Source: Actinomycetales bacterium (GTDB taxonomy: Bacteria > Actinomycetota > Actinomycetes > Actinomycetales > Cellulomonadaceae). Taken from it: 10,126 bases of DNA. Positions 517 through 10,126 of the stretch are shown piece after piece; within the stretch, counting starts at the first letter, position 1, and the number at the start of each line of letters is the position of its first letter. A program made the translations under genes and the position numbers. The notes under the pieces are model-generated. The model saw nothing but the letters and a program-made list of their open reading frames with translations. It had not been told where the DNA came from and did not search any database. The stretch spans positions 1 to 10,126 of the forward strand of contig JAATES010000381.1 in NCBI GenBank assembly GCA_015655615.1, in the 5' to 3' direction.

Positions 517-1299
517 TCAGGCGGAATTGGACCCGTCCGGGGGGTGTTGTGGTCCTCGGGTTTGTTGTTCGGCGTAGTGCGCCCCGAGTGCGGCTTCGAG
601 GGCACTGCTGGAGCTGGGTGTGCCCTCGATGGTGGCTTGCAGGTGTGCCAGCAGGGGCTGAGCGTAGGCGGCGATGGCCTCAGCGTCCTTTGCGGCCGTG
701 AATGCCGTAGCGGCCTTCTCGCCGAGGAGTTGGGCGGCCCGGGCATCGATGAGGGCCCGCAGGTAGGCGTAGGACGGTTCCGGGACCGGGTCAAGACCAC
801 CACTGAGCCCCACAGGCCGTGTGGAGCGGGTTTGGGTGTCGATCCACGCCGGCGCCCACTCTGCCAGGGCTGCGAGGGTGTCGAGGTCAGCGTTGGCGGT
901 GACGTCTTCGAGGCGGATACCGGCATCGAGGCGCATGCGGGACTGGTCCCACTTCGCCTGAGCGCGTTGGATGCTTGCGGGGTCGGACCAGTTCACGACC
1001 GGGCGTAGTTTCTCGGCTGCGGCAGCGAGTTGCTGGGCACTGCCGGTGATCTGGGCGGTCAGTCCGTCGACGACCGGCTTGTGCTTCGCCCGCACCTGTG
1101 CCGCGAGCTGCTGACGGTACTTCGCCACGCCCTGGGCGGTCAGGTCCGGGTCCGCGTAGGTCAATGCGGCAAGCAGGTCGTTGTCCAGGGACTGCCGGGT
1201 CGCACGGAGGCGGGCCTTGGTGGTGTTGATGGTCTCGATGGCCCGCGTTTGGTTCTGAATGTGGACGTACTCGTCGGAGAACGCACTGATGAATCCCAT
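517..1299 (-). CDS. Unidentified 260-aa, mostly helical protein; last gene of the operon
   Basis: The family is not recognised. The sequence is rich in Ala, Gln, Leu and charged residues with heptad-like stretches (about residues 15-45, 55-100 and 185-225), so a largely alpha-helical, possibly coiled-coil, soluble protein is likely. There is no signal peptide or membrane segment, and the C-terminus (about residues 226-260) is Ser/Pro/Gly-rich and probably disordered. The start is supported by an AGGAG ribosome site about 6 nt upstream of the ATG. The gene begins 9 nt after the stop of the preceding gene and is followed by a long hairpin, so it is probably the distal gene of the unit. In phage satellites this distal position often holds genes that interfere with, or are packaged by, a helper phage; that role is only a positional guess here. 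Confidence 0.8.
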   Translation of the reverse strand: MGFISAFSDEYVHIQNQTRAIETINTTKARLRATRQSLDNDLLAALTYADPDLTAQGVAKYRQQLAAQVRAKHKPVVDGLTAQITGSAQQLAAAAEKLRPVVNWSDPASIQRAQAKWDQSRMRLDAGIRLEDVTANADLDTLAALAEWAPAWIDTQTRSTRPVGLSGGLDPVPEPSYAYLRALIDARAAQLLGEKAATAFTAAKDAEAIAAYAQPLLAHLQATIEGTPSSSSALEAALGAHYAEQQTRGPQHPPDGSNSA

Positions 1300-1308
1300 G
1301 AGGAGCTC

Positions 1309-1836
1309 CTAGGAAGTGTGGGTGGCGGCGATGGATGCCGGGTGTGGGGTGTAGGCCGGGCAGCCGATCTGATGCTGCCAGGGCTCGGTGGGGCCGCGGC
1401 GTCCGCACGACGGGCATCCTGGTGCGGCACCGTCTTGGGTGGTGGTCAGGTGGATGATGCTGCCGGTGGGGGTGTGGGTGTGGTCGTAGCCGGCCAGGTG
1501 GCGGGTACGGCGGTCGTCTTGGGACTCCACACCCGCAGGCGGCCCCGCGACCGTCAATGCCGCTGCTGCATCGGAGGCCGACACGGCGGCCACGGCGGCG
1601 TCGAGGCGCCGCTTGGCTGCCTGCAGGCGAAGGGCGGTGAACCTGGCCTGGGAGCGGCCGTCATCGAGTTGGTCTCGACTGATCGTGGTGTCCCCAGCGA
1701 CGATGGCACGTTGCAGGGTTGTGACGGCCATCTCGGCGTCCTGATGCGCCTGGAGAGCACCCTGGTGGGCGTCGGTGGCGTCCTGGACGTTCAACGGCTC
1801 AGGAGCCGCCTCTGGGGTGAGGGTGGTGGGTGTCAT
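1309..1836 (-). CDS. Helical protein with a C-terminal Cys/His zinc-knuckle motif
   Basis: 175 aa, family not recognised. Residues about 15-95 are Ala/Gln/Asp-rich and look helical. A Thr/Gly-rich linker follows, then a Cys/His cluster: C141-x2-C144-G and H155-x3-C159-P. The spacing suits one zinc ion. A similar H-x2-G-C-P-A signature occurs in the small protein encoded at 6106-6402. The ATG at 1836 has GGAG about 7 nt upstream and lies 38 nt inside the preceding HTH gene, so translation is probably coupled. A nucleic-acid-binding or scaffold role is possible, but nothing in the sequence fixes it. Confidence 0.75.
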   Translation of the reverse strand: MTPTTLTPEAAPEPLNVQDATDAHQGALQAHQDAEMAVTTLQRAIVAGDTTISRDQLDDGRSQARFTALRLQAAKRRLDAAVAAVSASDAAAALTVAGPPAGVESQDDRRTRHLAGYDHTHTPTGSIIHLTTTQDGAAPGCPSCGRRGPTEPWQHQIGCPAYTPHPASIAATHTS

Positions 1837-2257
1837 CGGGTTGCTCCGCGAGGTGCTGGGTGAGGCTGGCTTGGTCGATCAGCCAGATGCGGGTTCCGTC
1901 GAGACGCCTGGCCTCGATGCGGCCGGTGCTAGCAAGTTGCTGAACCCTCCTGATCGAGAGCCCGCTCTCGGTAGCGGCCTGAGTCGTGGTGCACCACCTG
2001 GGTGCGCCCACTGGTTCCAGTCTTCCAGGCGGCCCGGGCTGGTTTCGTTGCAGCGAAATGGTCTCTGCGACTGCGAGTGCTTCGAGGATGGCCCGCACCC
2101 GGCGCGACACTGGCCGACCCGTTGTGGCCAGGAGGTCCAGCAAAGCACCCGCGAGGTCGGCGGGGATGAGCACACCGGCGGGTGACACGACCACGCCGAC
2201 GTCCGCACCAGAGTCGTTACCGGTGCTGGTGGCCGGGTCGTGAGCGGTGGGGGTCAT
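1799..2257 (-). CDS. Helix-turn-helix protein (MerR/HTH_17-like)
   Basis: 152 aa. Residues 1-25 look disordered and residues 30-75 helical. Residues about 89-135 form a MerR/excisionase-type DNA-binding domain: the run TQAATESGLSIRRVQQLAS fits the helix-turn-helix, and the following GRIEARRLDGTRIWLID fits the beta-wing. This architecture suggests a DNA-binding regulator or recombination accessory factor. The start codon shares ATGA with the stop of the whiB gene, a coupled junction. Its position after whiB suggests the pair could act on transcription together, which is inference. The target is unknown. Confidence 0.75.
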   Translation of the reverse strand: MTPTAHDPATSTGNDSGADVGVVVSPAGVLIPADLAGALLDLLATTGRPVSRRVRAILEALAVAETISLQRNQPGPPGRLEPVGAPRWCTTTQAATESGLSIRRVQQLASTGRIEARRLDGTRIWLIDQASLTQHLAEQPDDTHHPHPRGGS

Positions 2258-2553
2258 GCCGGGTCGTCGCGTTCGCCTGGTGTCAGCCCGCCCCAGATCC
2301 CATACCGTTCACCGCCGGCGGTCGCGAGCTCCAAGCACGCCACCCTGGCTGGGCAGGTCCAGCACGCGGCCACAGCGGTCTTGGCCAGGCGCATCGAGAG
2401 CACCACGGTTGAGTCCAGGTCCCACGCCTGCGGTGTCGGTGAGGTTTGGCACTGTGCCGGCCCGTGTTCATCGAAGGCTGCCCGCAACCGGGCCGCGGCC
2501 TGCCGTGCCGGGCCTGCGGTGCGCAGCAGCTCGCCCGGGTTCGCGTGCCCCAT
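2254..2553 (-). CDS. WhiB-family Fe-S transcription factor
   Basis: 99 aa, a usual WhiB length. Four Cys expected to ligate a [4Fe-4S] cluster are present: C35, then C64-x2-C67-x5-C73. The family's G[I/V]WGG beta-turn follows as GIWGG at 85-89. WhiB-like proteins are found in actinobacteria and their phages and act by binding the primary sigma factor's region 4 next to DNA. The C-terminal tail after the turn is short (10 residues, few basic residues), so DNA contact may be weaker than in WhiB proteins with an AT-hook tail. The gene starts within a TGATG overlap and ends in an ATGA overlap. A role in redirecting host or helper-phage transcription is plausible but not shown. Confidence 0.92.
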   Translation of the reverse strand: MGHANPGELLRTAGPARQAAARLRAAFDEHGPAQCQTSPTPQAWDLDSTVVLSMRLAKTAVAACWTCPARVACLELATAGGERYGIWGGLTPGERDDPA

Positions 2554-2726
2554 CAGATGCCACCACCCGAGTGCCGACGGATTTCGAATCCGATACCAGG
2601 GGTGAACTGGCGGGTCAGGGCCGGTGTGTTCTCAGATTGGTCACGGGTGGCGGCACTGGCACTGGCACTCGCGCGTGCGCGAGTACGCGAAGGGCCAGCG
2701 GGACGTCCGCGCCGCCGGCCGGTCAT
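2553..2726 (-). CDS. Small Arg-rich protein (57 aa), unidentified
   Basis: ATG at 2726 shares ATGA with the stop of the upstream gene, and its own stop overlaps the whiB start as TGATG. Both junctions match the style of the rest of the operon. The product starts MTGRRRGRPAGPSRTRARA, continues with an Ala-Ser repeat encoded by three tandem GGCACT hexamers, and ends in a Phe/Ile-containing tail rich in Gly. The basic N-terminus suggests nucleic-acid binding. Third-position GC is moderate. A longer in-frame extension up to 2972 overlaps the neighbouring gene and is Pro/His/Arg-rich, as out-of-frame readings of GC-rich genes usually are, so I chose the short form. It may also be an untranslated spacer. 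Confidence 0.5.
   Translation of the reverse strand: MTGRRRGRPAGPSRTRARASASASAATRDQSENTPALTRQFTPGIGFEIRRHSGGGI
2667..2684. repeat. Perfect 8-bp inverted repeat with 2-nt centre, beside three GGCACT hexamers
   Basis: ACTCGCGC-GT-GCGCGAGT lies directly next to three tandem GGCACT copies (2652-2669). Both fall inside the 57-aa ORF, 100-130 nt before the whiB start. It could be a protein-binding site, an RNA hairpin that tunes whiB expression, or a chance product of high GC. Confidence 0.4.
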
Positions 2727-3040
2727 CGTGCGGCGCCGGGGAGGTCGAGGGTGGTGGGGAGGGTGAGCCATGTTTCGACGTTGCGTGCGTTGCCGGGGTG
2801 CCAGATGACCGGCTTCCAGTGTTCGGGGATTTGTTGTGTGCTGGTCTTGTCGGAGGGGTAGGGCTTGCGGGGGCGGATGTAGATGGCGAGGGTGATGCCG
2901 GTGGCGTGGAGGGCAAGGATGGTTGGCCAGGTGGGATCGCGGCGGTCGCGTGGGTCGGTCCAGTAGCGCCATTGTCGTTCTCGGTTGAGGGCTTGGATAA
3001 AGCGGAGCTCGAGGGCGAGCATGTCGGGTGTGAGTCTCAT
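2723..3040 (-). CDS. Unidentified 105-aa protein
   Basis: The family is not recognised. It starts MRLTPDMLALELRFIQALN, has a Trp/Arg-rich segment (residues 20-40), a hydrophobic beta-like stretch (about 40-56) and a Trp-rich C-terminal half, consistent with a small folded soluble protein. The ATG at 3040 is chosen because it has AAGGAG about 5 nt upstream. An earlier in-frame start at 3097 would add residues encoded within the iteron repeats and lacks such a site. The gene is immediately downstream of the iteron region and next to the primase-helicase gene, so a replication or control role is possible. Confidence 0.75.
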   Translation of the reverse strand: MRLTPDMLALELRFIQALNRERQWRYWTDPRDRRDPTWPTILALHATGITLAIYIRPRKPYPSDKTSTQQIPEHWKPVIWHPGNARNVETWLTLPTTLDLPGAAR

Positions 3041-3315
3041 CGAGTCTCCTTGACGGCAGCGACCGATAGCGACCGTTCTTCCTGGGTCGTGTCGCATGTT
3101 GAAACAGGGACCGAAAGGACCGATAGCGACCGTGGTTTCGTATGAGTGCCCTGCGCGGGCGCGTATAGGTGGAAGTAGGGAGGATCGGTCGCTATCGGTC
3201 GCTCAGGGTCGGTTGTCGTTGATATTGCAGCGATCTTGACAGCGACCGTTGTGGTGGTGAAACGGTCCAGGACGGTCGCTTGCTGTCGCTGATTGGTCGC
3301 TACTTCTGCCACCAC
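3037..3315 (-). CDS. Possible 92-aa ORF lying across the iteron region
   Basis: A GTG at 3315 (or 3312, with GGTGAG 5 nt upstream) opens a frame that overlaps the primase stop by a few bases and ends in an ATGA overlap with the next gene, like other junctions here. Codon-position GC is weakly coding-like. Against it: the product is Thr/Ser/Val-rich with repeats (RSLSV twice) forced by the DNA iterons, and no family is recognisable. The segment may be a non-coding origin, or an origin inside a gene. Confidence 0.35.
   Translation of the reverse strand: MVAEVATNQRQQATVLDRFTTTTVAVKIAAISTTTDPERPIATDPPYFHLYAPAQGTHTKPRSLSVLSVPVSTCDTTQEERSLSVAAVKETR
3058..3301. repeat. Iteron cluster, candidate replication origin
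   Basis: The octamer AGCGACCG occurs exactly at 3058, 3068, 3125 and 3241, and as its complement CGGTCGCT at 3186, 3196 and 3273. Near copies lie at 3106, 3283 and 3294. Several are spaced 10 bp apart, one helical turn (3058/3068, 3186/3196, 3273/3283). The 16-mer GACCGATAGCGACCGT is repeated exactly at 3061 and 3118 and inverted (15 of 16) at 3185-3200. A less GC-rich patch (about 3211-3240) lies between sites. Iterons directly after a primase-helicase gene are the known arrangement of SaPI/PICI origins, where the Rep protein binds them. Confidence 0.7.
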
Positions 3316-5786
3316 TGCTCACCGTCCTGCTCCGACTCGTCGCTGATGAGTGCGACGCCGGTGTAGACCTTGCGGCTGTTGCTCTTCTGGGTTTGGACTC
3401 CGAAGCGGCCTTTCAGTTCCCGCCCGAGGGCTTGACTGGTCTTCGCCTGCTCGCCCTGCGCGATGCACCAGCGCTTGTACTCGGCGATCAGGTCTGTCTG
3501 CTGGACTCGCAGGACTGAGGAGCCGCGGTGGGTGCGTTCTTCGAGGAAGCGTCCGAGCTGGTCCTCTTCTGCGGCGTACTCCTTCGTGGCGGCCATGACG
3601 CTGTCCGGTTCGTCGAGGCCGGAGCTGAGTGCGTTGACGGCGCCTTTGATGATCCATGCGAGGATGCCCGCGGCTTCCTGTGCGAGCAGCTCGTTTTCGA
3701 GGTTCTGGTTCCGCTTGTCGACCGGGACGGTGTTGGTGAACGGGATGAGCCGTGCCCGGCGCCAGAAGGCCTCACCGCCGGTGGTGACGCGGGGCTGTTC
3801 GTTTCCCATCACCCACAGGTGGTGGGTCGGGTCGAAGCTGAAGAAGTCTTGCCGCATGAATCGGCTCGTGAGCCGGTCGCCACCGGTAAGGAGTTTGACC
3901 TTGGCTTCGTCGAACCGGTCGTTCTCGTTGACTTCGGAGGCCACGACCATGCGCATGCCGGCGAGGCGGGCGATCTCTGTCTCGTGCTGGGTTGCTCCTG
4001 CGAGGAGGAGACGGTTGTTGGCGGTGCTGGCGTAGTCGCCCAGAGCCTTGCCAGTGACGCCGAGGAACACGGATTTGCCGTTGGCGCCGGAACCGTGGGC
4101 AAACGGCAGGACGTGGTAGGTGACGACCCCTGTAGCCGCATAGCCGACGAGTCGCTGCAGGTAGGGGATGACGTCTTCGTGGCCGGCGAACGTCTCGGCG
4201 AGGAACTTGTCCCACAGTGGCGTGGCGGCGTCGTAGTCGGGTGCGGCCAGGGTGCTGCGAGAGTGAAGGGCGGCCGGGTCGGGCGGTGTCAGTGTCCCGG
4301 TGCGTAGGTTTACAGCCCCGTCTGGGGTGTTGAGCGCGTAGGGGTCGGCGTCGAGTTCGTGGGTGGTGACGACGATGGCCGGGTGGGACCGGGCGACTTT
4401 GAGCATGTCTTCGAGGCTGCGCCGTGACAGGGATCGGGTGCGGTGCTTCTCCACGGCCGGACTCGTAGTGGGGTCCAGGCTCTCAGCGGTGTGCTTCGCG
4501 AGCTGGAGGACCTTCTCCTTGTTGTCCCACGCCCACCGGGAGCCGTCCCAGATGAGCCAGTGGCCGCGGTCTGCAACGTAGCGGACGTGGTGGGCGTGCT
4601 GGGTGGCGAACAACTCCGCGTTGCCGACGTCGGTGAGGGTCATGGTGCGGTCGGTCAGCGTGGTGACCTTCGCGGTCCTCGGCACGGGTGCGAGGGCAAG
4701 TGAGCCGTCCGTGGCCGGGATGTTCTGGAACGCGTCCGGGACAACACTGGACTTGTCCGGGACGGTGTGGGGCTTGTCCGCGCTAGGCCCGAGGATGTCG
4801 TCGAACACTGCATCGGGTGAGGTGACGGCGTGCAGGCGGTACTCGGTGGCCTGGTTGCCGTACCCGGCGGCGTAGAGTGCCTTGGCGGTGGCGCTGTGGT
4901 CGCCGCCGTATTGCAGCACTGCGAGCGCCCCCATCTTTGTGTAGGGGATCTCCTGCTGGAAGTCTGTGCTGGACGTGAAGACGAAGAGTCGGTCTCGGTC
5001 GTCGGCATGGCCGGTGGTGGCGCTGATGCCGGTGGTCTTGCCGGGCCGGCGCCAATATCTTGTGCGGCCTCGGGTGAAGACGAGCTGCCACCCTGCCGGC
5101 TCGAGGATGTCGGCCCAGTCAGTCTTGTTCTCGTAGTCGTCACCCGGCGTTACGCCCTCGGTGGGATCATGAGGCGGCACCGGTGATGTGGAGGCTGCCG
5201 GTTCGGGTTGGACGTCCAACGTGGCGAGGACCGCATGGAAGTCGGCGCGTTCCTCGAGGGTGATCGTCGCGGCCATGTCAGGACTACCGATCACTCTCGA
5301 CCAGGAGTTGCCAGTCGGGTGATGCTGCGACGGTGCGACGATGACATACCCGTTCTCACCGCGCGTCTCTGCCAGGATCTCGCCTGCAGAATTCTTCGCG
5401 ATCTTCTGGTTACCCGGCACGGCGGCGTCGACCAGCCTGTAGTGGAAGTGCCAGCCTCCAGAGGGCGACTGCTCCGTCCACCCCATCGTGACCCTGTCCC
5501 ACAACTCACCGATGCCGGAGTTGTGGGCGAGTTCGCGAAGTTCAGGCAAGTGATGGGCGGCGCGGCCCTCCAACTCTGTCAGTTCTGCGCCACCGGAGAC
5601 GCTGCCTTGGATGATGGCGAGGTCGTGGCGGTCGCCTGTGAACCAGGTGTGAAGCTGCTCGACAGTGGCCTGTTGGGTTGTGTATTGCTTCCATGCGACC
5701 GCGGGCGCCTTACTGCCGTCAGGGCGGATCGGGATGACGGAGTAGCCGGCGGCATGGAGTTCGAGTGCAGGTCCGAGGATCGTCAC
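3300..5786 (-). CDS. Primase-polymerase / SF3 helicase replication protein
   Basis: 828 aa. Residues about 1-190 are an archaeo-eukaryotic-type PrimPol domain: the N-terminal GYSVIPIRPDGSKAP, acidic motif I as E71-L-E73, motif II PSGGWHFHY (108-116) and GYVIVAPSQHHPTG (146-159). Residues about 390-545 fit a D5_N-type region. Residues about 555-690 are a superfamily 3 helicase of the phage P4/D5 group: Walker A GSGANGKS (565-572), Walker B region RMVVASEVNEND (612-623), sensor LWVMGNE (657-663) and Arg-finger region FWRRARL (674-680). Such proteins prime, unwind and often recognise the origin. The likely target is the iteron cluster just after the gene. The start is GTG at 5786, with the PrimPol fold beginning at once and GGTGAT about 5 nt upstream; the GTGA overlaps the preceding ORF's stop. 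It is full length for this family. Confidence 0.95.
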   Translation of the reverse strand: MTILGPALELHAAGYSVIPIRPDGSKAPAVAWKQYTTQQATVEQLHTWFTGDRHDLAIIQGSVSGGAELTELEGRAAHHLPELRELAHNSGIGELWDRVTMGWTEQSPSGGWHFHYRLVDAAVPGNQKIAKNSAGEILAETRGENGYVIVAPSQHHPTGNSWSRVIGSPDMAATITLEERADFHAVLATLDVQPEPAASTSPVPPHDPTEGVTPGDDYENKTDWADILEPAGWQLVFTRGRTRYWRRPGKTTGISATTGHADDRDRLFVFTSSTDFQQEIPYTKMGALAVLQYGGDHSATAKALYAAGYGNQATEYRLHAVTSPDAVFDDILGPSADKPHTVPDKSSVVPDAFQNIPATDGSLALAPVPRTAKVTTLTDRTMTLTDVGNAELFATQHAHHVRYVADRGHWLIWDGSRWAWDNKEKVLQLAKHTAESLDPTTSPAVEKHRTRSLSRRSLEDMLKVARSHPAIVVTTHELDADPYALNTPDGAVNLRTGTLTPPDPAALHSRSTLAAPDYDAATPLWDKFLAETFAGHEDVIPYLQRLVGYAATGVVTYHVLPFAHGSGANGKSVFLGVTGKALGDYASTANNRLLLAGATQHETEIARLAGMRMVVASEVNENDRFDEAKVKLLTGGDRLTSRFMRQDFFSFDPTHHLWVMGNEQPRVTTGGEAFWRRARLIPFTNTVPVDKRNQNLENELLAQEAAGILAWIIKGAVNALSSGLDEPDSVMAATKEYAAEEDQLGRFLEERTHRGSSVLRVQQTDLIAEYKRWCIAQGEQAKTSQALGRELKGRFGVQTQKSNSRKVYTGVALISDESEQDGEQWWQK

Positions 5787-6109
5787 CGGGCATCACCGCG
5801 GTTTCGGCGAGCACTCTCCCGGGTAATCGCATACCTTGTCCGAAGAGAGGTTGCTTCGATAGGGGTGGTGGCATGGAGCCAGAGGTTGAGGCGGTCGAGC
5901 TCGAGGGGTTCAGAGTGAACGTGTGCCGATTCGAGGGGAGATTCTTTGTGCATCTCGACTACCAATGGCGTGCATTCGAGTCCGAGTTTGCCGCGAGACG
6001 GTATTTGCGTGAACTTCGCGCACGACGAACCCGCCAGCATCCGCATCGGCCGACGTTTGCTCCGCCGGAGTTCGGTGGCCCATCGGGACCTGGAATGTAG
6101 GTCTGTCAT
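5783..6109 (-). CDS. Possible 108-aa operon protein, unidentified
   Basis: The frame from ATG at 6109 has GGAG 7 nt upstream, shares ATGA with the stop of the preceding gene, and its stop overlaps the GTGA start of the primase. This is exactly how the rest of the operon is joined. The product begins MTDLHSRSRWATELRRSKRR and contains a more ordered middle (LVVEMHKESPL, then LELDRLNLWLHA). No family is recognised, codon bias is flat (third position only slightly GC-richer), and a protein-like ORF lies opposite at 5873-6100. One of the two is probably a shadow. Junction evidence favours this one. Confidence 0.45.
   Translation of the reverse strand: MTDLHSRSRWATELRRSKRRPMRMLAGSSCAKFTQIPSRGKLGLECTPLVVEMHKESPLESAHVHSEPLELDRLNLWLHATTPIEATSLRTRYAITRESARRNRGDAR
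5873..6100 (+). CDS. Competing plus-strand 75-aa ORF, unidentified
   Basis: ATG at 5873 has AGGGG 7 nt upstream. The product looks like a small beta-beta-alpha fold: FRVNVCRFEGRFFVHLDYQW gives two strands, ESEFAARRYLRELRARR a helix, and a Pro/Gly-rich tail follows. This is more protein-like than the minus-strand reading opposite, but it would be the only plus-strand gene inside a minus-strand operon and it lacks clear codon bias. Family unknown. Confidence 0.35.
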   Translation: MEPEVEAVELEGFRVNVCRFEGRFFVHLDYQWRAFESEFAARRYLRELRARRTRQHPHRPTFAPPEFGGPSGPGM

Positions 6110-6402
6110 GGTGTTTCTCCGGTGATGTCGGGGTGGGTTGCTGGGCAGCCCGCGAAGTGGCTGGGGGTGACTTCCCATACGCCGATGCCGCGGTGCTCGT
6201 CGCGGGCCATTTGGCGGCGCTGGGCACGGTTTGGGCCAGTCAGGCGGACCCCGCATGGGCATTGCCCGGTCAGCAGTAGCAACCGCTGTCGGGCGAGGCC
6301 TTCACGCACGTGCTGGGGTGCCTGGTCAGGGATGATCGGCACGACGACGTTGAAGCCGAGACCGAACAACACCGTGGACACAGTCTCGGTGCGGAGGTTC
6401 AT
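6106..6402 (-). CDS. Small Cys/His protein (98 aa)
   Basis: The family is unrecognised. An N-terminal part with a hydrophobic stretch (VLFGLGFNVVVPII, 11-24) is followed by a helix. A possible metal site is C48-P-C50-G with H82-x3-C86 and H90. The H-x2-G-C-P-A signature recurs in the 175-aa protein at 1309-1836. The gene starts in an ATGA overlap with the upstream HTH gene, and its last codons carry the GGAG ribosome site of the next ORF. It probably binds zinc. Its role, perhaps in nucleic-acid or partner binding, is not known. Confidence 0.75.
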   Translation of the reverse strand: MNLRTETVSTVLFGLGFNVVVPIIPDQAPQHVREGLARQRLLLLTGQCPCGVRLTGPNRAQRRQMARDEHRGIGVWEVTPSHFAGCPATHPDITGETP

Positions 6403-6713
6403 GCGGTTCTCCGATCTTGTGACCAGTTGTGACCATCGCCGTCGTTGACCTGGGGTGTTGGGGGGTTGATCGGATCTGTAATCCGTAGGTCCGGCCCGCC
6501 GTCAGGTGTGGGCGTGATCCCGAGGTGGGCGAGTAGGGGTGCGGTGGGTACCCGGTATGCCTTCCCGAGGCGGAGCACGGGGACCGGGAACTGGCCGCGG
6601 CGGGCGAGTTCGTGGGATTTCGTGCGCCCTACCAGCAGGACCCTGCCGGCGGTCTCAATGTCGAGCACCGGGGGCAGTGCTTGGAGTTGGGTGAGAGTGA
6701 ATGGTGTCACCAC
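6399..6713 (-). CDS. Excisionase/MerR-type helix-turn-helix protein
   Basis: 104 aa. Residues about 17-65 read as an HTH_17-type domain: LDIETAGRVLLVGRTKSHEL is the helix-turn-helix and PVPVLRLGKAYRVPTAPLLA the wing and following helix. The tail is Pro/Asp-rich and probably flexible. The GTG at 6713 is preferred because GGAGG lies 7 nt upstream; GTG at 6710 would give a GTGA overlap instead. This is the second such domain in the operon, so the element carries more than one small DNA-binding protein. It may regulate the downstream replication gene or assist excision. Confidence 0.8.
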   Translation of the reverse strand: MVTPFTLTQLQALPPVLDIETAGRVLLVGRTKSHELARRGQFPVPVLRLGKAYRVPTAPLLAHLGITPTPDGGPDLRITDPINPPTPQVNDGDGHNWSQDRRTA

Positions 6714-7006
6714 GGGTTGGCCTCCGGGTTCTTGTTGGCGGCGAACTGGCGAATCAGGTCACTGCGGCGGTGCCGGTTCAATGCGCGGCGCAGCGCCGTT
6801 TCAGTGCGGTACCCGACGCGTCGGGCGGTGTTCTCGAGGGTTTCCCCCGAGCGGGCGAGGAGGTCAATGTCACCGATCACGTCGGCGTAGTCGACCTTGG
6901 GTCCTACCGGTGTGGGTTGTGACCTGGGTGGGAGGCCGGCCTTTCGTCTCTTCCATGCGGCGTGCCAGGCTGCGGGACTGATCCGGGTTTCGGCGGTGGT
7001 GGTCAT
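6707..7006 (-). CDS. Small helix-turn-helix-like protein (99 aa)
   Basis: The N-terminus (1-35) is basic with two Trp. Residues about 41-90 are helical, and ETLENTARRVGYRTETALRR (55-74) fits a helix-turn-helix of the kind found in sigma-like or phage regulatory proteins. It starts in an ATGA overlap with the metallopeptidase gene. DNA binding is likely from the motif, but the exact family is not known to me. Confidence 0.7.
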   Translation of the reverse strand: MTTTAETRISPAAWHAAWKRRKAGLPPRSQPTPVGPKVDYADVIGDIDLLARSGETLENTARRVGYRTETALRRALNRHRRSDLIRQFAANKNPEANPW

Positions 7007-7329
7007 CGGCCCGCCGCCTTGGTGTGTGCCGGGCGCAGGGATGCTTCCAGGAAGATCACTTTGCGGGCGGTCTTGGTGGCCAATTCCTCGATACGGGTCT
7101 CGGCCCGCGGTGAGGGTGGGGTGTCGTGTTCGAGGAGGAAGTGCAGCAGTTCGTGGAGCATCGTCTCGATGTACTGGAGCTTGGATTGGTGTGAGGAGAC
7201 GAAGACCTCACCGGCAGTGTGGGACGTCAGGCCGAGGTACCCATCCGGGAGTGGGCCTTCATAGAACGTCACGAGTGGTTGGAGTTTGGTGCGGTCGAGG
7301 TCCCTCGTGGTCGGCGTCGTGGCGGTCAT
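7003..7329 (-). CDS. HExxH metallopeptidase-like protein
   Basis: 108 aa. The zinc-protease motif H59-E60-L-L-H63 lies in a helix (ETMLHELLHFLLEH), with E81/E82 in a following helix (EELATKTARK) as candidate third ligand. The order beta-strand, HExxH, short gap, acidic helix resembles the compact ImmA/IrrE class, whose members cleave XRE-type repressors of mobile elements, but an SprT-like or other small zincin is possible. No signal peptide, so cytoplasmic. It starts in an ATGA overlap and shares the element with an XRE repressor, which makes a protease-triggered derepression circuit possible (inference). Confidence 0.75.
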   Translation of the reverse strand: MTATTPTTRDLDRTKLQPLVTFYEGPLPDGYLGLTSHTAGEVFVSSHQSKLQYIETMLHELLHFLLEHDTPPSPRAETRIEELATKTARKVIFLEASLRPAHTKAAGR

Positions 7330-7703
7330 CGTGGTTCACCACCCTTGGGGAGCTTGTCGAGGATGTATTGGAGCGTGTCGATCGCACGGATGAGGTCGCT
7401 GCGGTAGATCGTCGCGATGCTCTTCGCATGCCTCGTGAAGCGGTCATCCTCGCTGAGTCGTTCTAGTGTTCCGACCTTCGAAGTCAGAGCGAGAGCGGCG
7501 TTGCGAAACTGATCCGACAAGGGGTTACGCCGGGGCTTGCTCGGCTCTACGGAGCGTTGTTCGGCGATGACCACACACTCGCCAGCCGCGATGGTGGCGA
7601 CCGGAGCGTCAGGTGGAAGCTTGGTGGCCACCTTGGAGGTGTACGGACTCCGTACACCTGCCTTGCGCCGGTAATCGGAAACCGTCATCACGCCGATGCC
7701 CAC
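7326..7703 (-). CDS. C-terminal piece of the frameshifted regulator (125 aa)
   Basis: This is the part of the second frame that follows a GTG at 7703. That codon is the Val within the helix-turn-helix (QIAPAVGIG), so it is unlikely to be a true start. The same frame is open upstream without a start codon up to the duplication. The C-terminal part (about residues 65-120) is helical with regular charge spacing. It is followed by an ATGA overlap with the metallopeptidase gene. Confidence 0.5.
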   Translation of the reverse strand: MGIGVMTVSDYRRKAGVRSPYTSKVATKLPPDAPVATIAAGECVVIAEQRSVEPSKPRRNPLSDQFRNAALALTSKVGTLERLSEDDRFTRHAKSIATIYRSDLIRAIDTLQYILDKLPKGGEPR

Positions 7704-7749
7704 GGCCGGTGCGATCTGCCGCGTGGATAGTGCCGGTGACCCGTCGATC

Positions 7750-8181
7750 TCAATGCTGAGGTTGGCGACGAGGTCGCGGCGGATTGCGGCGGATTGCGGC
7801 GGACAGTCCAGTGGTGTGGGGGGCGAACTCGGTGCTGGCGTACTCGGCCCAGGAGGCGTAGCCCAGGGCGATGTCGGCTCGGCGGTCCCGTGCTTCGCGG
7901 ATCGCGGCGGCCAGTTTGTCTAGGACGCCGGCAGCTGAGTCGAGCAGCAGACTGATCTGCTGCGTCAGGCGGCGAGCGTCACCTTCGGCGAGTGGCACTT
8001 CGCATAGTTCGACAGTTGTGAGGCCACCACTTCGGTGGGGGGTGGCCTCGACTGCCTGGGTGGGTTCTGCGAGAATCGACACGGATGCTCCTATGGCTTG
8101 CTGGCTGTTGGTGTTGTCCATGCCCTCGGTTGCGGCTGCCACCGCGCCGAGGGCGCTCTCGTCTTCGCGGGCTCTGCTCAT
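7750..8181 (-). CDS. N-terminal piece of the frameshifted regulator (143 aa)
   Basis: ATG at 8181 overlaps the stop of the xis-like gene as ATGA. The last 11 residues (NPPRPRRQPQH) are read after the 10-bp duplication and are not native. It lacks the helix-turn-helix, so if made it would probably not bind DNA. A longer upstream extension to 8463 would cover the whole xis-like gene in another frame and is rejected. Confidence 0.55.
   Translation of the reverse strand: MSRAREDESALGAVAAATEGMDNTNSQQAIGASVSILAEPTQAVEATPHRSGGLTTVELCEVPLAEGDARRLTQQISLLLDSAAGVLDKLAAAIREARDRRADIALGYASWAEYASTEFAPHTTGLSAAIRRNPPRPRRQPQH
7776..7803. repeat. 10-bp tandem repeat, 2.8 copies, inside a coding region
   Basis: The unit TTGCGGCGGA is present as a partial copy (7776-7783) and two full copies (7784-7793, 7794-7803). 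Ten is not a multiple of three, so each gain or loss of one unit shifts the reading frame of the regulator gene. With one copy fewer the gene is open. Confidence 0.85.
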
Positions 8182-8378
8182 GCCGTCACCGGAACCTTGG
8201 TGTCGGCGGTGTACTGCGCGTCCAGCCATGTCTCGACATCCTCGAGTCGGTAGCGCACGTGGCGCCCCACACGGAATCCCTTCGGGCCGCGTCCCTGGCT
8301 GCGCCACTTCCGCAGTGTCGGTGTAGGGATCTGAATCTTGTCTGCGACCTCCTGGGTCGTCATCAACCTCGCACTCAC
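8178..8378 (-). CDS. Excisionase (Xis/AlpA-like) HTH protein
   Basis: 66 aa, typical for an excisionase of the HTH_17/MerR type. MTTQEVADKIQIPTPTLRKW (6-25) is the helix-turn-helix, GFRVGRHVRYRLEDVETWL the wing and last helix. Such proteins bend DNA at attachment sites to favour excision, and AlpA-type members also activate integrase or element genes. The GTG at 8378 is preferred over the ATG at 8363 because GGAGG lies 4 nt upstream. It is the first gene of the long minus-strand unit, right beside the operators bound by the presumed repressor, so its synthesis would be the first result of derepression. Confidence 0.88.
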   Translation of the reverse strand: MSARLMTTQEVADKIQIPTPTLRKWRSQGRGPKGFRVGRHVRYRLEDVETWLDAQYTADTKVPVTA

Positions 8379-8392
8379 GGAGCCTCCATCTT

Positions 8393-8429
8393 TGATCGCA
8401 AGTCACTCGGACTGATCTACTTGCGATCA
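8393..8429. promoter_or_regulatory. Inverted-repeat operator TGATCGCAAGT ... ACTTGCGATCA
   Basis: Two perfect 11-bp inverted copies (8393-8403 and 8419-8429) are separated by 15 bp. A related direct copy, CATCTTTGATCGC, is found at 8387-8399 and again at 8477-8489. The placement between divergent genes, over the start of the minus-strand promoter, suits the XRE repressor encoded alongside. Confidence 0.65.
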
Positions 8430-8430
8430 G

Positions 8431-8459
8431 ACCATACATGTCCGAGCGTCCGGGTTCAA
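8431..8459 (-). promoter_or_regulatory. Predicted promoter of the xis-led operon
   Basis: On the minus strand, TTGAAC (8454-8459) is followed after 17 nt by TATGGT (8431-8436). Transcription would begin near 8424, about 45 nt before the GTG of the xis-like gene, inside the inverted-repeat operators at 8419-8429 and before 8393-8403. A bound repressor would therefore cover the start point. Confidence 0.5.
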
Positions 8460-8468
8460 GCATGATCG

Positions 8469-8503
8469 TTGCGTGTCATCTTTGATCGCGTATAGTCGCA
8501 TCA
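8469..8503 (+). promoter_or_regulatory. Predicted leaderless promoter of the repressor gene, with operator in its spacer
   Basis: TTGCGT (8469-8474), 16 nt, then TATAGT (8491-8496). The ATG at 8503 lies 6 nt after the -10 box, so transcription probably starts at the ATG itself. The CATCTTTGATCGC copy at 8477-8489 fills the spacer, which would let the repressor shut off its own gene. Confidence 0.6.
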
Positions 8504-9228
8504 TGGCAGGAAGAGAAAACGCACTGGGACCTACTGGAGACCACGTCCGCCATAATCTGAAGCGGATCAGAACAGCGCGAGGGCTCACTTACGCGGAGTT
8601 GTCACGACAGCTCGAGGCTGCAGGGCGCGCCATTCCTCCGCTTGGACTGCGTCGTATCGAAAGCGGAGACCGGCGGGTGGATGTCGACGATCTGACGGCG
8701 CTCGCCTACGTGCTCTGGGTGAATCCGGTTGTCCTGTTGGCGTCAGAAGTTCGCGGTCGAAGCGTGACTACTGAACTCACCGGCTACGGGGTGTCGTCAT
8801 CGGAAGTTGCACTCAGCTGGTTGAGCGGTGATCCACTGTGCTTGCGAGGCCAGCCTGGCGGAGATGAGCGCTTCCAGTTCCTTCTCGGCGTGATGCCTCG
8901 ACTCACTCAGCGTTCGGATCTAGAACAGAAGTCGGATGCAACACGGGCTGCTCGAGGCGCCATCGAAGACGAAATCCACGAAGCGGCTTTGGCCGGTGCC
9001 GACCGAGCTGAGATAGATGCATTGATCGAAGATCTGAGCCGCGCCCAAGAGCGAGCTACTCGGGCACTCGAGGCGCTCCAGGAAGCTGAGCCCTTGCTGC
9101 TCCCTGCTCCCGTCGATTTTGTGCCAGAGGACGCACGAGCTAAGCAAGTGCATGTATTGGTCCTCTTGGCGAGTAGCACTATGGCCGGTGAGTGCCCGCC
9201 TGTCGGCATCAACGATCGAGAGAGGTGA
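8503..9228 (+). CDS. XRE-family repressor of the element
   Basis: 241 aa. Residues 15-82 are an XRE/Cro-type helix-turn-helix domain: HNLKRIRTARGLTYAELSRQ holds helices 1-2, and IPPLGLRRIESGDRRVDVDD the recognition helix and following turn. The rest includes a charged helical stretch (about 141-196) that may dimerise. An in-frame GTG at 8473 would add 10 residues, but the promoter at 8469-8496 would then overlap the coding sequence, so the ATG at 8503 is chosen. It is divergent from the xis-led operon and 6 nt upstream of the integrase, the place of the Stl/C1-type repressor in satellites and prophages. It probably represses both promoters; the inducing signal is unknown. Confidence 0.85.
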   Translation: MAGRENALGPTGDHVRHNLKRIRTARGLTYAELSRQLEAAGRAIPPLGLRRIESGDRRVDVDDLTALAYVLWVNPVVLLASEVRGRSVTTELTGYGVSSSEVALSWLSGDPLCLRGQPGGDERFQFLLGVMPRLTQRSDLEQKSDATRAARGAIEDEIHEAALAGADRAEIDALIEDLSRAQERATRALEALQEAEPLLLPAPVDFVPEDARAKQVHVLVLLASSTMAGECPPVGINDRER

Positions 9229-9234
9229 CCGAGG

Positions 9235-10126
9235 ATGCGTGGCAGCGTGTTCAAGCGGTGCAACTGTGAACCCACCTACGACACCAAAGGCCGCCGGAAG
9301 GCCTGCCGACTCAACCACGGCTCCTGGGCCTACGTCGTCGACCTCGGACCCGGCCCTGGCAAGGACGGTGTGTGGCAAGACCGCCGGCAAGCGAAGAAGT
9401 CAGGGTTCCGCACCAAGACCGAAGCCGAAGACGCACTCGCCGGCGTCACCGCCTCCGTAGCCGACGGCACCTACGCCCACGACGAACAACAAACCCTGAC
9501 CACCTACCTGCGGGCCTGGCTCGCACAGAAACAGGTCAACGGGCTACGCCCCACCACGGTGCGCGGATACTCCCAGCACATCGAGGACTACCTGGTCCCG
9601 ATGCTCGGCCGCCACCGCCTCAAAGACCTCCGCCCCGGACACATCGAAACCATGCTCACCCAACTCCTGGGCGAACACACGGTAGGCGGCAAGAAACGAC
9701 CCGGGATGAGCCCGGCGACCGTCCGGCGGGTCCACGCCACGTTGCGGTCCGCGCTCGCGTCAGCGAAGAAGAAGAGGCTCATCAGCTTCAACCCGGCCAT
9801 CGACGTCGACCTCCCCAAACACCACCGCCCCAAGGTCCAACCCTGGGAACCCGCAGAGCTGGGCCAGTTCCTCGATCACGTTGCCACCGACCGCCTCGGT
9901 GCCCTCTACGAAGTCATTGCCGGTGCCGGACTGCGCCGCGGGGAAGCCCTCGGGCTGCGATGGTCGGACGTGGACCTGGAGCGGCGGGTGATCTTCGTGC
10001 GCCAACAGGTCGCCCAAGTCACCACCACCACGGCCTGTGCGATCTGTGGGCGGGTGCATGGCCGGTTGATGTTCGCACCCACCAAGACCGACAGCCACGA
10101 AGAAGAAGCCCTCGACATCGCGGACA
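9235..10126 (+). CDS. int: Tyrosine integrase, truncated by the right window edge
   Basis: The frame from ATG at 9235 is open for 297 codons to the end of the window. Residues 1-60 are an arm-type DNA-binding region with Cys/His (C9, C11, C24, H28) that may bind zinc. Residues about 85-185 are the SAM-like core-binding domain (TYLRAWLAQKQVNGLRPTTV). The catalytic domain starts at about 203 and shows the box-I arginine in GAGLRRGEALGLRW (R234) and the beta-hairpin lysine region PTKTDS (K284). The H-x-x-R and Tyr motifs lie beyond the window. An insertion with C268-x2-C271 and H275 precedes the lysine. It follows the repressor by 6 nt, with AGGTGA overlapping that stop, so the two are co-transcribed. 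The attachment site should lie just past its end. Confidence 0.95.
   Translation, partial: MRGSVFKRCNCEPTYDTKGRRKACRLNHGSWAYVVDLGPGPGKDGVWQDRRQAKKSGFRTKTEAEDALAGVTASVADGTYAHDEQQTLTTYLRAWLAQKQVNGLRPTTVRGYSQHIEDYLVPMLGRHRLKDLRPGHIETMLTQLLGEHTVGGKKRPGMSPATVRRVHATLRSALASAKKKRLISFNPAIDVDLPKHHRPKVQPWEPAELGQFLDHVATDRLGALYEVIAGAGLRRGEALGLRWSDVDLERRVIFVRQQVAQVTTTTACAICGRVHGRLMFAPTKTDSHEEEALDIAD

Follow-up and report, generated by a model that had tools for sequence, protein, structure and literature searches.

A probable phage-satellite-like element of an actinobacterium and its relatives, most with a tape-measure gene and none with a recognised portal or major capsid gene

In March 2026, tape measures encoded by satellites were described for the Vibrio phage-inducible chromosomal island (PICI)-like elements (PLEs), which encode a tape measure, a chaperone and sometimes a baseplate hub and build chimeric tails, and in which loss of the tape measure cuts transduction by 96% (PLE1) or 99% (PLE4); the authors state that no other satellites had been reported with a tape measure and point to putative tmp genes in PLE-like elements and in some capsid-forming PICIs (cf-PICIs; Extended Data Fig. 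10) (PMC12987554). For Actinomycetota, published work describes Mycobacterium candidate PICIs, defined by an integrase and a major capsid gene (PMC10654092), the Streptomyces Mulch/Flayer satellites (MulchRoom/MiniFlayer), which encode terminase, portal and capsid (PMC10690885), and a survey which assumes that many actinobacterial elements shorter than 15 kb could be satellites, experiments lagging behind (PMC10023795). No recognised account of capsid-less tape-measure elements in Actinomycetota was found among the titles and abstract openings searched, in which subscription journals are mostly uncovered. Here we describe a 10,126-bp stretch of DNA from an Actinomycetales bacterium (hereafter the window; the entire contig C222, GenBank JAATES010000381.1, of a 2.17-Mb assembly of 406 contigs that is 81% complete), together with twelve related elements located through homologues of its marker protein, A260. 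We consider it likely that the window covers the integrase side of an integrated element resembling phage satellites, and that the lineage to which it belongs takes the head and most of the tail from a helper phage and adds a tape measure of its own.

The A260 elements resemble the PLEs (PLE1, PLE4 and PLE11, satellites of phage ICP1) in being integrated satellite-type elements, most of them with a tape measure, which in the relatives pDJL3 and L054 is paired with a tail assembly chaperone (TAC) as in the PLEs; they differ in the host phylum and in the presence of A260 and of terminase or MuF-type genes, and helper use is proven for the PLEs and proposed for the A260 elements. With the Staphylococcus aureus pathogenicity islands (SaPIs) and PICIs they share the size and a layout in which integrase and repressor point away from an operon of xis and primase, and they differ by the phage-type PrimPol-D5 gene (in the window) and by the lack of a recognised capsid-remodelling gene. 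PICIs are not known to carry tape-measure, TAC, large terminase (TerL) or MuF-type genes. The cf-PICIs, the Mycobacterium candidates and MulchRoom/MiniFlayer are likewise small (candidate) phage-dependent elements, most with an integrase, but carry capsid genes, whereas neither a major capsid nor a portal gene was recognised in the A260 elements. The Arthrobacter phages ChuckDuck and Hum25 and the Rhodococcus phage Mbo4, which are similar in primase (ChuckDuck) and tape measure (Hum25 and Mbo4), are in contrast complete phages with tails, 42-46 kb long, and have genes for head, tail and lysis. Actinomycete integrative and conjugative elements (AICEs), which combine integrase and Xis with phage-like replication genes, differ in that no FtsK-type translocase was recognised in the window.

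A260 (positions 517 to 1299, minus strand) is the last operon gene of the window and the marker of the element lineage. The protein has no Pfam or PHROG match, and its predicted structure consists of helices only (pLDDT 86.7), with no significant fold match for the model. Three different family members, each used as a tblastn query, gave no match among 50,697 phage records, and a profile search gave 13 family proteins (12 besides the window's own). Genome searches (1,799 genomes by the tool's count, the draws overlapping) gave matches in 2 of 200 genomes of the family, 5 of 396 of the order, 6 of 394 of the class and 1 of 396 of the phylum, counts that include the window's own genome and that are lower bounds for the order, class and phylum, where at most six candidates per genome were scored; within the genus of G379, 3 of 60 genomes also had matches, and within the family of G443, 2 of 47. 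The A260 family is rare, yet it extends beyond the window's order: G828 and G964 belong to another order of the same class, and pDJL3 is carried by Rhodococcus qingshengii djl-6-2. Scans of viral contigs with the A260 alignments A1 and A3, with P0012 and with the window integrase, and plasmid searches with P0001 and with the G828 A260, gave nothing useful; a Rhodococcus A260 query found 0 of 298 genomes, in a search that had no positive control.

The twelve elements comprise seven in chromosomes (G379, G563, G578, G443, G525, G828 and G368, the last with a weak A260 match, E = 2.4e-5), the plasmid pDJL3, and four on viral contigs (L053 to L056); L052, a viral-contig copy of pDJL3 with 100% identity, was not counted separately. 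Excluded were the remnants G004 and G964, the weak matches G495 (E = 6e-4) and G909 (E = 4e-4), and L057 (a 46-residue match). The G909 match looks like chance, in a locus that resembles ESX loci. G964 consists of an A260 piece beside an integrase. In G004, from the window's genus, what is left of A260 is its C-terminal half, which is joined to a low-complexity repeat (L010, 16862 to 17956) near a tRNA-Pro(cgg) gene; this remnant perhaps derives from integration there.

Direct repeats of 17 to 58 bp bound eight of the nine elements tested; ARAGORN detected a tRNA gene at the repeats of six of them, and the sizes (both repeats counted) range from 5.7 to 16.4 kb: G379 (53-bp repeat, tRNA-Tyr; 16.3 kb), G578 (58 bp, tRNA-Arg; 13.7 kb), G563 (24 bp, tRNA-Ser; 16.4 kb, the longest repeat-bounded element), G443 (45 bp, tRNA-Arg; 14.9 kb), G368 (27 bp, tRNA-Val; 5.7 kb), L055 (at least 37 bp, tRNA-Lys; 14.2 kb), and, with no tRNA gene detected at the repeat, G525 (17 bp; 12.6 kb) and G828 (27 bp; 13.2 kb). 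No repeats were found for L054, a contig that begins inside the integrase gene; on that side the comparison covered only 60 bases. pDJL3 is a circular 15,865-bp record with its own integrase, deposited as a plasmid and typed as non-mobilizable; it shows that a circular form exists, though not how that form arose.

Intact tape-measure genes were found in nine of the twelve elements, by PF10145 or TMP_3 in G379, G443, G525, pDJL3, L055 and L056 and by homology in G563, L053 and L054; the reading frames are open and encode 767 to 1439 aa. The G379 and G563 proteins resemble those of Arthrobacter phages (G379 and Hum25, 48% identity over 355 aa), that of G443 resembles those of Rhodococcus, Streptomyces and Mycobacterium phages, and that of G525 is of another type, with its best match in staphylococcal phages. 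The G525 tape measure has no match to the others compared, and that of G443 has only short, weak matches to those of G379 and G563. By these similarities, the tape measures appear to have been recruited from at least three phage lineages. Their lengths compared with those of the phage matches give a mixed picture: 960 and 1008 aa in G379 and G563 versus 988 in Hum25, and 1439 aa in pDJL3 versus 1585 in Mbo4 (52% identity, with 97% of the query aligned), are near phage length, whereas the 850-aa protein of G443 has longer matches (Xula, 1274; Mbo4, 1585). Directly upstream of the tape measure, pDJL3 has a TAC gene (PHROG 3860, 4e-30), and two such genes are present in L054.

Some of the elements have further phage genes. 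TerL is present in three of the twelve elements (pDJL3, PHROG 2, 2e-42; L053 and L054, with genes 99% and 69% identical), in each preceded by a small gene that has no PHROG match and occupies the usual place of the small terminase (TerS), a label given by position. Phage_min_cap2, which we take to be a MuF-type minor capsid family, was found in two (L055, 6e-48; L056, 2e-61). No portal or major capsid was recognised in any of the twelve by Pfam scans of selected ORFs and by tblastn with 93 structural and lysis queries from five actinophages, and a full prophage gene set (terminase, portal, capsid and tail) was present in none. The Pfam set, from which the genes for tape measure, A260, integrase and Xis, most XRE genes and some other, mostly small ORFs were omitted, consisted of 64 ORFs from five elements; among its ten Pfam families there was no terminase, portal, major capsid, FtsK or relaxase, and the sole structural match was Minor_capsid_2, in G525. 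The same ORFs matched 52 PHROG families, 25 of which were listed. Pfam scans of 10 pDJL3 proteins and of 10 chosen L055 and L056 proteins likewise gave no portal or major capsid, and no FtsK/TraB or relaxase was found in the window, in the 64 ORFs or in the 10 pDJL3 proteins. G828, G368, L053 and L054 were covered by tblastn only, apart from single proteins of G828 and G368. Against the window and seven elements, the 93 queries matched only tape measures (G379, G563 and G443) and one connector (G525); against pDJL3 and L053 to L056, they matched tape measures and TACs, and two weak matches of lysin queries fall within the genes for the L055 and L054 tape measures. As a control, each phage was searched against the other four, by which the large terminase was recovered six times, the portal four times and the major capsid once; the same tblastn overlooked the tape measure of G525 and the terminase of pDJL3.

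Selection was estimated for one pair, pDJL3 and L053. The dN/dS values were 0.15 for the tape measure (TMP), 0.07 for TAC, 0.13 for A260 and 0.03 for TerL, and 0.21, with few changes, for the gene in the TerS position; those of four short genes were higher (0.24, 0.32, 0.46 and 0.61). The tape measure is thus under purifying selection between the two Rhodococcus copies. The dS was 1.0 for TAC and 0.7 for TMP (compared as L051, 8976 to 13744, versus L053, 2774 to 7545) and 1.1-1.4 for three short genes, two of them beside this cassette, versus 0.03-0.44 for the other nine genes; the high values suggest that the TAC-TMP part may have been exchanged as a cassette in Rhodococcus.

The window fits the A260 element family as we define it, with an integrase, a Xis-type HTH protein and an A260-family protein in one element, and its membership was observed directly. 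Its integrase shares 50-55% identity with the integrases of L055 and L056, 45% with that of G443 and 41% with that of G379; the HTH protein J104 is 46-53% identical to L055 and L056 proteins and 39-43% to those of G443 and G379; Xis is 31-50% identical to small HTH proteins of several related elements; and the XRE protein is 35% identical over 107 aa to that of G828. A260, and in several relatives also xis and J104, occur in the same order. WhiB matches lie before the tape measure in L056 (1e-5) and, weakly, in L055 (E = 0.014), and the window's whiB lies between primase and A260; L055 and L056 share the order TMP, a gene of 167-182 aa, A260 and the MuF-type gene. The replication genes vary, with PrimPol-D5 in the window and AAA_25 in G443, pDJL3 and L056; DUF3987 and replication-initiation families were found among the 64 ORFs of the relatives, and we take the former to be from G525 and the latter to be Agromyces genes. 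Integrase and A260 lie 7.9 kb apart in the window, 5.0-9.1 kb apart in the seven tape-measure elements measured and 2.3-6.0 kb apart in the three that lack one.

The element type cannot be read from the window alone because both element ends lie off the contig, with the 3' part of the integrase gene missing. A sequence-only reading had proposed a PICI-like satellite. The satellite part of this proposal is supported by small, mostly repeat-bounded relatives that share A260, the integrase, usually xis and partly J104, and the window has the PICI layout, in which integrase and repressor are transcribed away from an operon that begins with xis and holds primase and replication genes; the evidence does not go so far as to make it a PICI, and no PICI packaging-redirection or capsid-remodelling gene was recognised in the window, an incomplete contig. 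The same reading had named structural genes within the att boundaries as a sign of a full prophage: tape measures did turn up in nine of the twelve relatives, but no full prophage resulted.

Several observations weigh against a satellite that brings its own tape measure. The absence of a capsid rests on sequence searches whose control recovered a single major capsid, and a very divergent capsid is possible. The window primase is nearest to primases of full-size phages, and G578, G828 and G368 (three of the twelve) hold A260 and no tape measure. In the window, no tape measure lies upstream of A260 as in L055 and L056, its place before A260 being taken by B175, and neither PF10145 (tape measure) nor PF06152 (MuF-type) was found in the window's 81%-complete assembly. 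Within the 27-bp repeats of G828, a fragment of 255 aa (L038, 6581 to 7348) resembles an FtsK-type ATPase by eye; it matches neither a solved structure nor the FtsK-like protein beside the element. Since the genes for WhiB, an HTH protein and B175 precede A260 in the window, any tape measure must follow A260, as in G443 and G525, and from the relatives we predict that the window's own element has one, beyond the contig.

The phage-like primase made a prophage a serious rival, and the occurrence of the distal genes was therefore examined. If the window were the left part of an ordinary temperate prophage, with the structural genes past the contig end, its primase (47% identical to that of Arthrobacter phage ChuckDuck, and with relatives on viral contigs of 34-40 kb) and the order of integrase, repressor and divergent operon, which ChuckDuck has too, would be readily understood. 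A260, however, is absent from the 50,697 phage records, its homologues that can be placed in intact loci sit in twelve compact elements, of which the longest bounded by repeats is 16.4 kb, and the distance of 7.9 kb between integrase and A260 falls within the range of the tape-measure elements (5.0-9.1 kb); we regard a prophage as unlikely. That the elements are defective prophage remnants, the tape measure being left from decay, is very unlikely: remnants with A260 do exist (G004 and G964), but the reading frames of the elements are intact, synteny is conserved in three Agromyces elements, dN/dS is 0.03-0.15 for TerL, TAC, A260 and TMP in the one pair, and the same odd gene has been kept from what appear to be at least three tape-measure lineages.

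An AICE or an integrated plasmid that moves by conjugation would share with the window the integrase, Xis and a primase-type replication protein (all of which occur in AICEs too), pDJL3 was deposited as a plasmid, and the G828 fragment may be FtsK-like; we nevertheless hold conjugation to be highly improbable, given the lack of FtsK/TraB and relaxase matches in the proteins scanned (window, 64 ORFs of five relatives and 10 pDJL3 proteins, with G828, G368, L053 and L054 outside the scan), the typing of pDJL3 as non-mobilizable, and the tape-measure, TAC, terminase and MuF-type genes, which are phage genes. There is also a small chance that the elements are satellites whose tape measure is a decoy that poisons tail assembly of the helper and is not part of a particle. 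PLE11 also restricts tail assembly, via Rta (PMC12987554), and the short tape measure of G443 would suit such a role; the near-phage lengths in G379, G563 and pDJL3, and the coupling of tape measure and TAC in pDJL3, are features that a decoy need not have.

Under the satellite reading that we favour, the integrase and Xis would move the element into and out of a (usually) tRNA gene, the XRE protein would keep the divergent operon off, and on derepression the PrimPol-D5 protein would replicate the element from the adjacent iterons. The element would make no head of its own. Judging from the relatives, an infecting or induced tailed phage would provide head and portal together with most tail parts, and a substitute tape measure would come from the element, in some cases along with a chaperone, a large terminase or a MuF-type protein; the element's DNA would then exit in chimeric particles. 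Dependence on a helper and chimeric tails are thus inferred from the relatives.

Two replication features of the window bear on this scheme. The PrimPol-D5 (SF3) primase-helicase (3300 to 5786, minus strand; Prim-Pol, 2e-12; D5_N, 1e-33; PHROG 2478, 6e-168) is of phage type and aligns with the ChuckDuck primase over 98% of its length; a 59% match to its N-terminal part was also seen in Cellulosimicrobium terreum (L002, 10001 to 10993). Adjoining its gene, seven iterons (AGCGACCG/CGGTCGCT) in both orientations occupy positions 3058 to 3280, with no copy elsewhere in the 10,126 bp; 0.03 copies were expected, the maximum was one in 2000 first-order Markov simulations of that region, and the cluster is a probable origin. 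A reading frame across the iterons (3037 to 3315) is probably no gene.

ORF calling and scans with Pfam and PHROG agreed with the gene order and orientation that had been claimed from the sequence, including the integrase and XRE genes in one direction, the divergent xis-led operon that extends through the primase-helicase, and the iterons beside it. On the plus strand are the tyrosine integrase gene, whose 3' end is lost at the contig end (9235 to 10125; Phage_int_SAM_3, E = 1.3e-8; PHROG integrase, 1.8e-41) and whose remainder was not found elsewhere in the assembly, and the XRE-type regulator or repressor gene (8473 to 9228; HTH_3/HTH_31, E = 1e-4; PHROG 11503, 1e-22). The operon, on the minus strand, begins with the Xis-type HTH_17 protein (8178 to 8378; HTH_17, 6e-13; PHROG 66 excisionase, 1e-11), followed by the unknown proteins N138 (7750 to 8163; open frame, matching only PHROG 8179, E = 0.04) and M125 (7326 to 7703; open frame, PHROG 29861, E = 6e-5), an IrrE-like (ImmA/IrrE) protein (7003 to 7329; PF06114, E = 7e-6), a small HTH-like protein with weak matches (6707 to 7006; 99 aa, or 57 aa if an internal start is used), J104 (6399 to 6713; PHROG 32619, 1e-6), an HTH protein common to related elements, and the small unknown protein I98 (6106 to 6402; open frame). 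A 57-aa ORF had earlier been placed among the distal genes; the sole 57-aa ORF called (6707 to 6880) is proximal to the primase.

Beyond the iterons, and also on the minus strand, lie the genes for a 105-aa unknown protein (2723 to 3040 from the best-scoring start; no Pfam or PHROG family match), a WhiB-like regulator (2254 to 2553; PF02467, 7e-11), the HTH_17 protein C152 (1799 to 2257; PF12728, 6e-5) and B175 (1309 to 1836), an orphan with a putative zinc knuckle, which found only itself among 5.8 billion proteins in a search limited to relatives sharing short exact words; A260 follows. As the sequence-only reading had held, the WhiB and HTH domains are the recognisable ones among the distal genes by Pfam. 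B175 and A260 have no family match. In agreement with that reading, no capsid, tail, terminase, relaxase or FtsK-type gene was recognised in the window by Pfam and PHROG or with the 93 phage queries, none of which matched within its 10.1 kb. Matches of Xis and C152 to PHROG 57, a small-terminase family (4e-5 and 5e-4), were read as HTH cross-matches. The left end (1 to 516) holds no convincing gene and no att core was found there; neither a tRNA gene nor an att core was found in the window as a whole.

Some features of individual relatives were also noted. G368 (L042, 13460, to L043, 3575) is a mini-element with an integrase, a small HTH protein and the weak A260 relative, and one of its genes encodes a product 32% identical over 111 aa to a HIRAN-domain protein of the G443 element. 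Just beyond the 17-bp repeat of G525 lie, by eye, HsdS- and HsdM-like type I restriction genes (L017, 1659 to 5122). An apparent AICE adjoins the A260 element of G828 (L039, 6601 to 14098), with a GntR-type regulator, an FtsK-like protein, a replication gene, xis and integrase, and G828 also has a frame resembling an IS110-type transposase (all by eye). All three Agromyces elements have, at their far end and on the opposite strand, a conserved 118-aa HTH protein (L021, 1893 to 2249, PHROG 5536; L027, 1994 to 2350; L028, 13913 to 14266) and a putative lipoprotein. DUF732 was matched by 2 of the 64 ORFs of the relatives in the Pfam scan.

A more specific idea, which we put forward only tentatively and think less probable than its opposite, is that the lineage replaces virion proteins thought to enter the recipient cell, namely the tape measure (nine of the twelve) and a MuF-type internal head protein (two), with A260 as the common partner; the recruitment of tape measures, repeatedly and from at least three phage lineages, and the swap of the TAC-TMP cassette in Rhodococcus would be part of this. 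If it is true, satellites could control DNA delivery without building the particle. If an independent lineage of actinobacterial elements has tape measures and no recognised head, tail substitution would seem to have evolved more than once; the A260 elements offer tractable soil bacteria in which to ask why satellites want a tape measure of their own.

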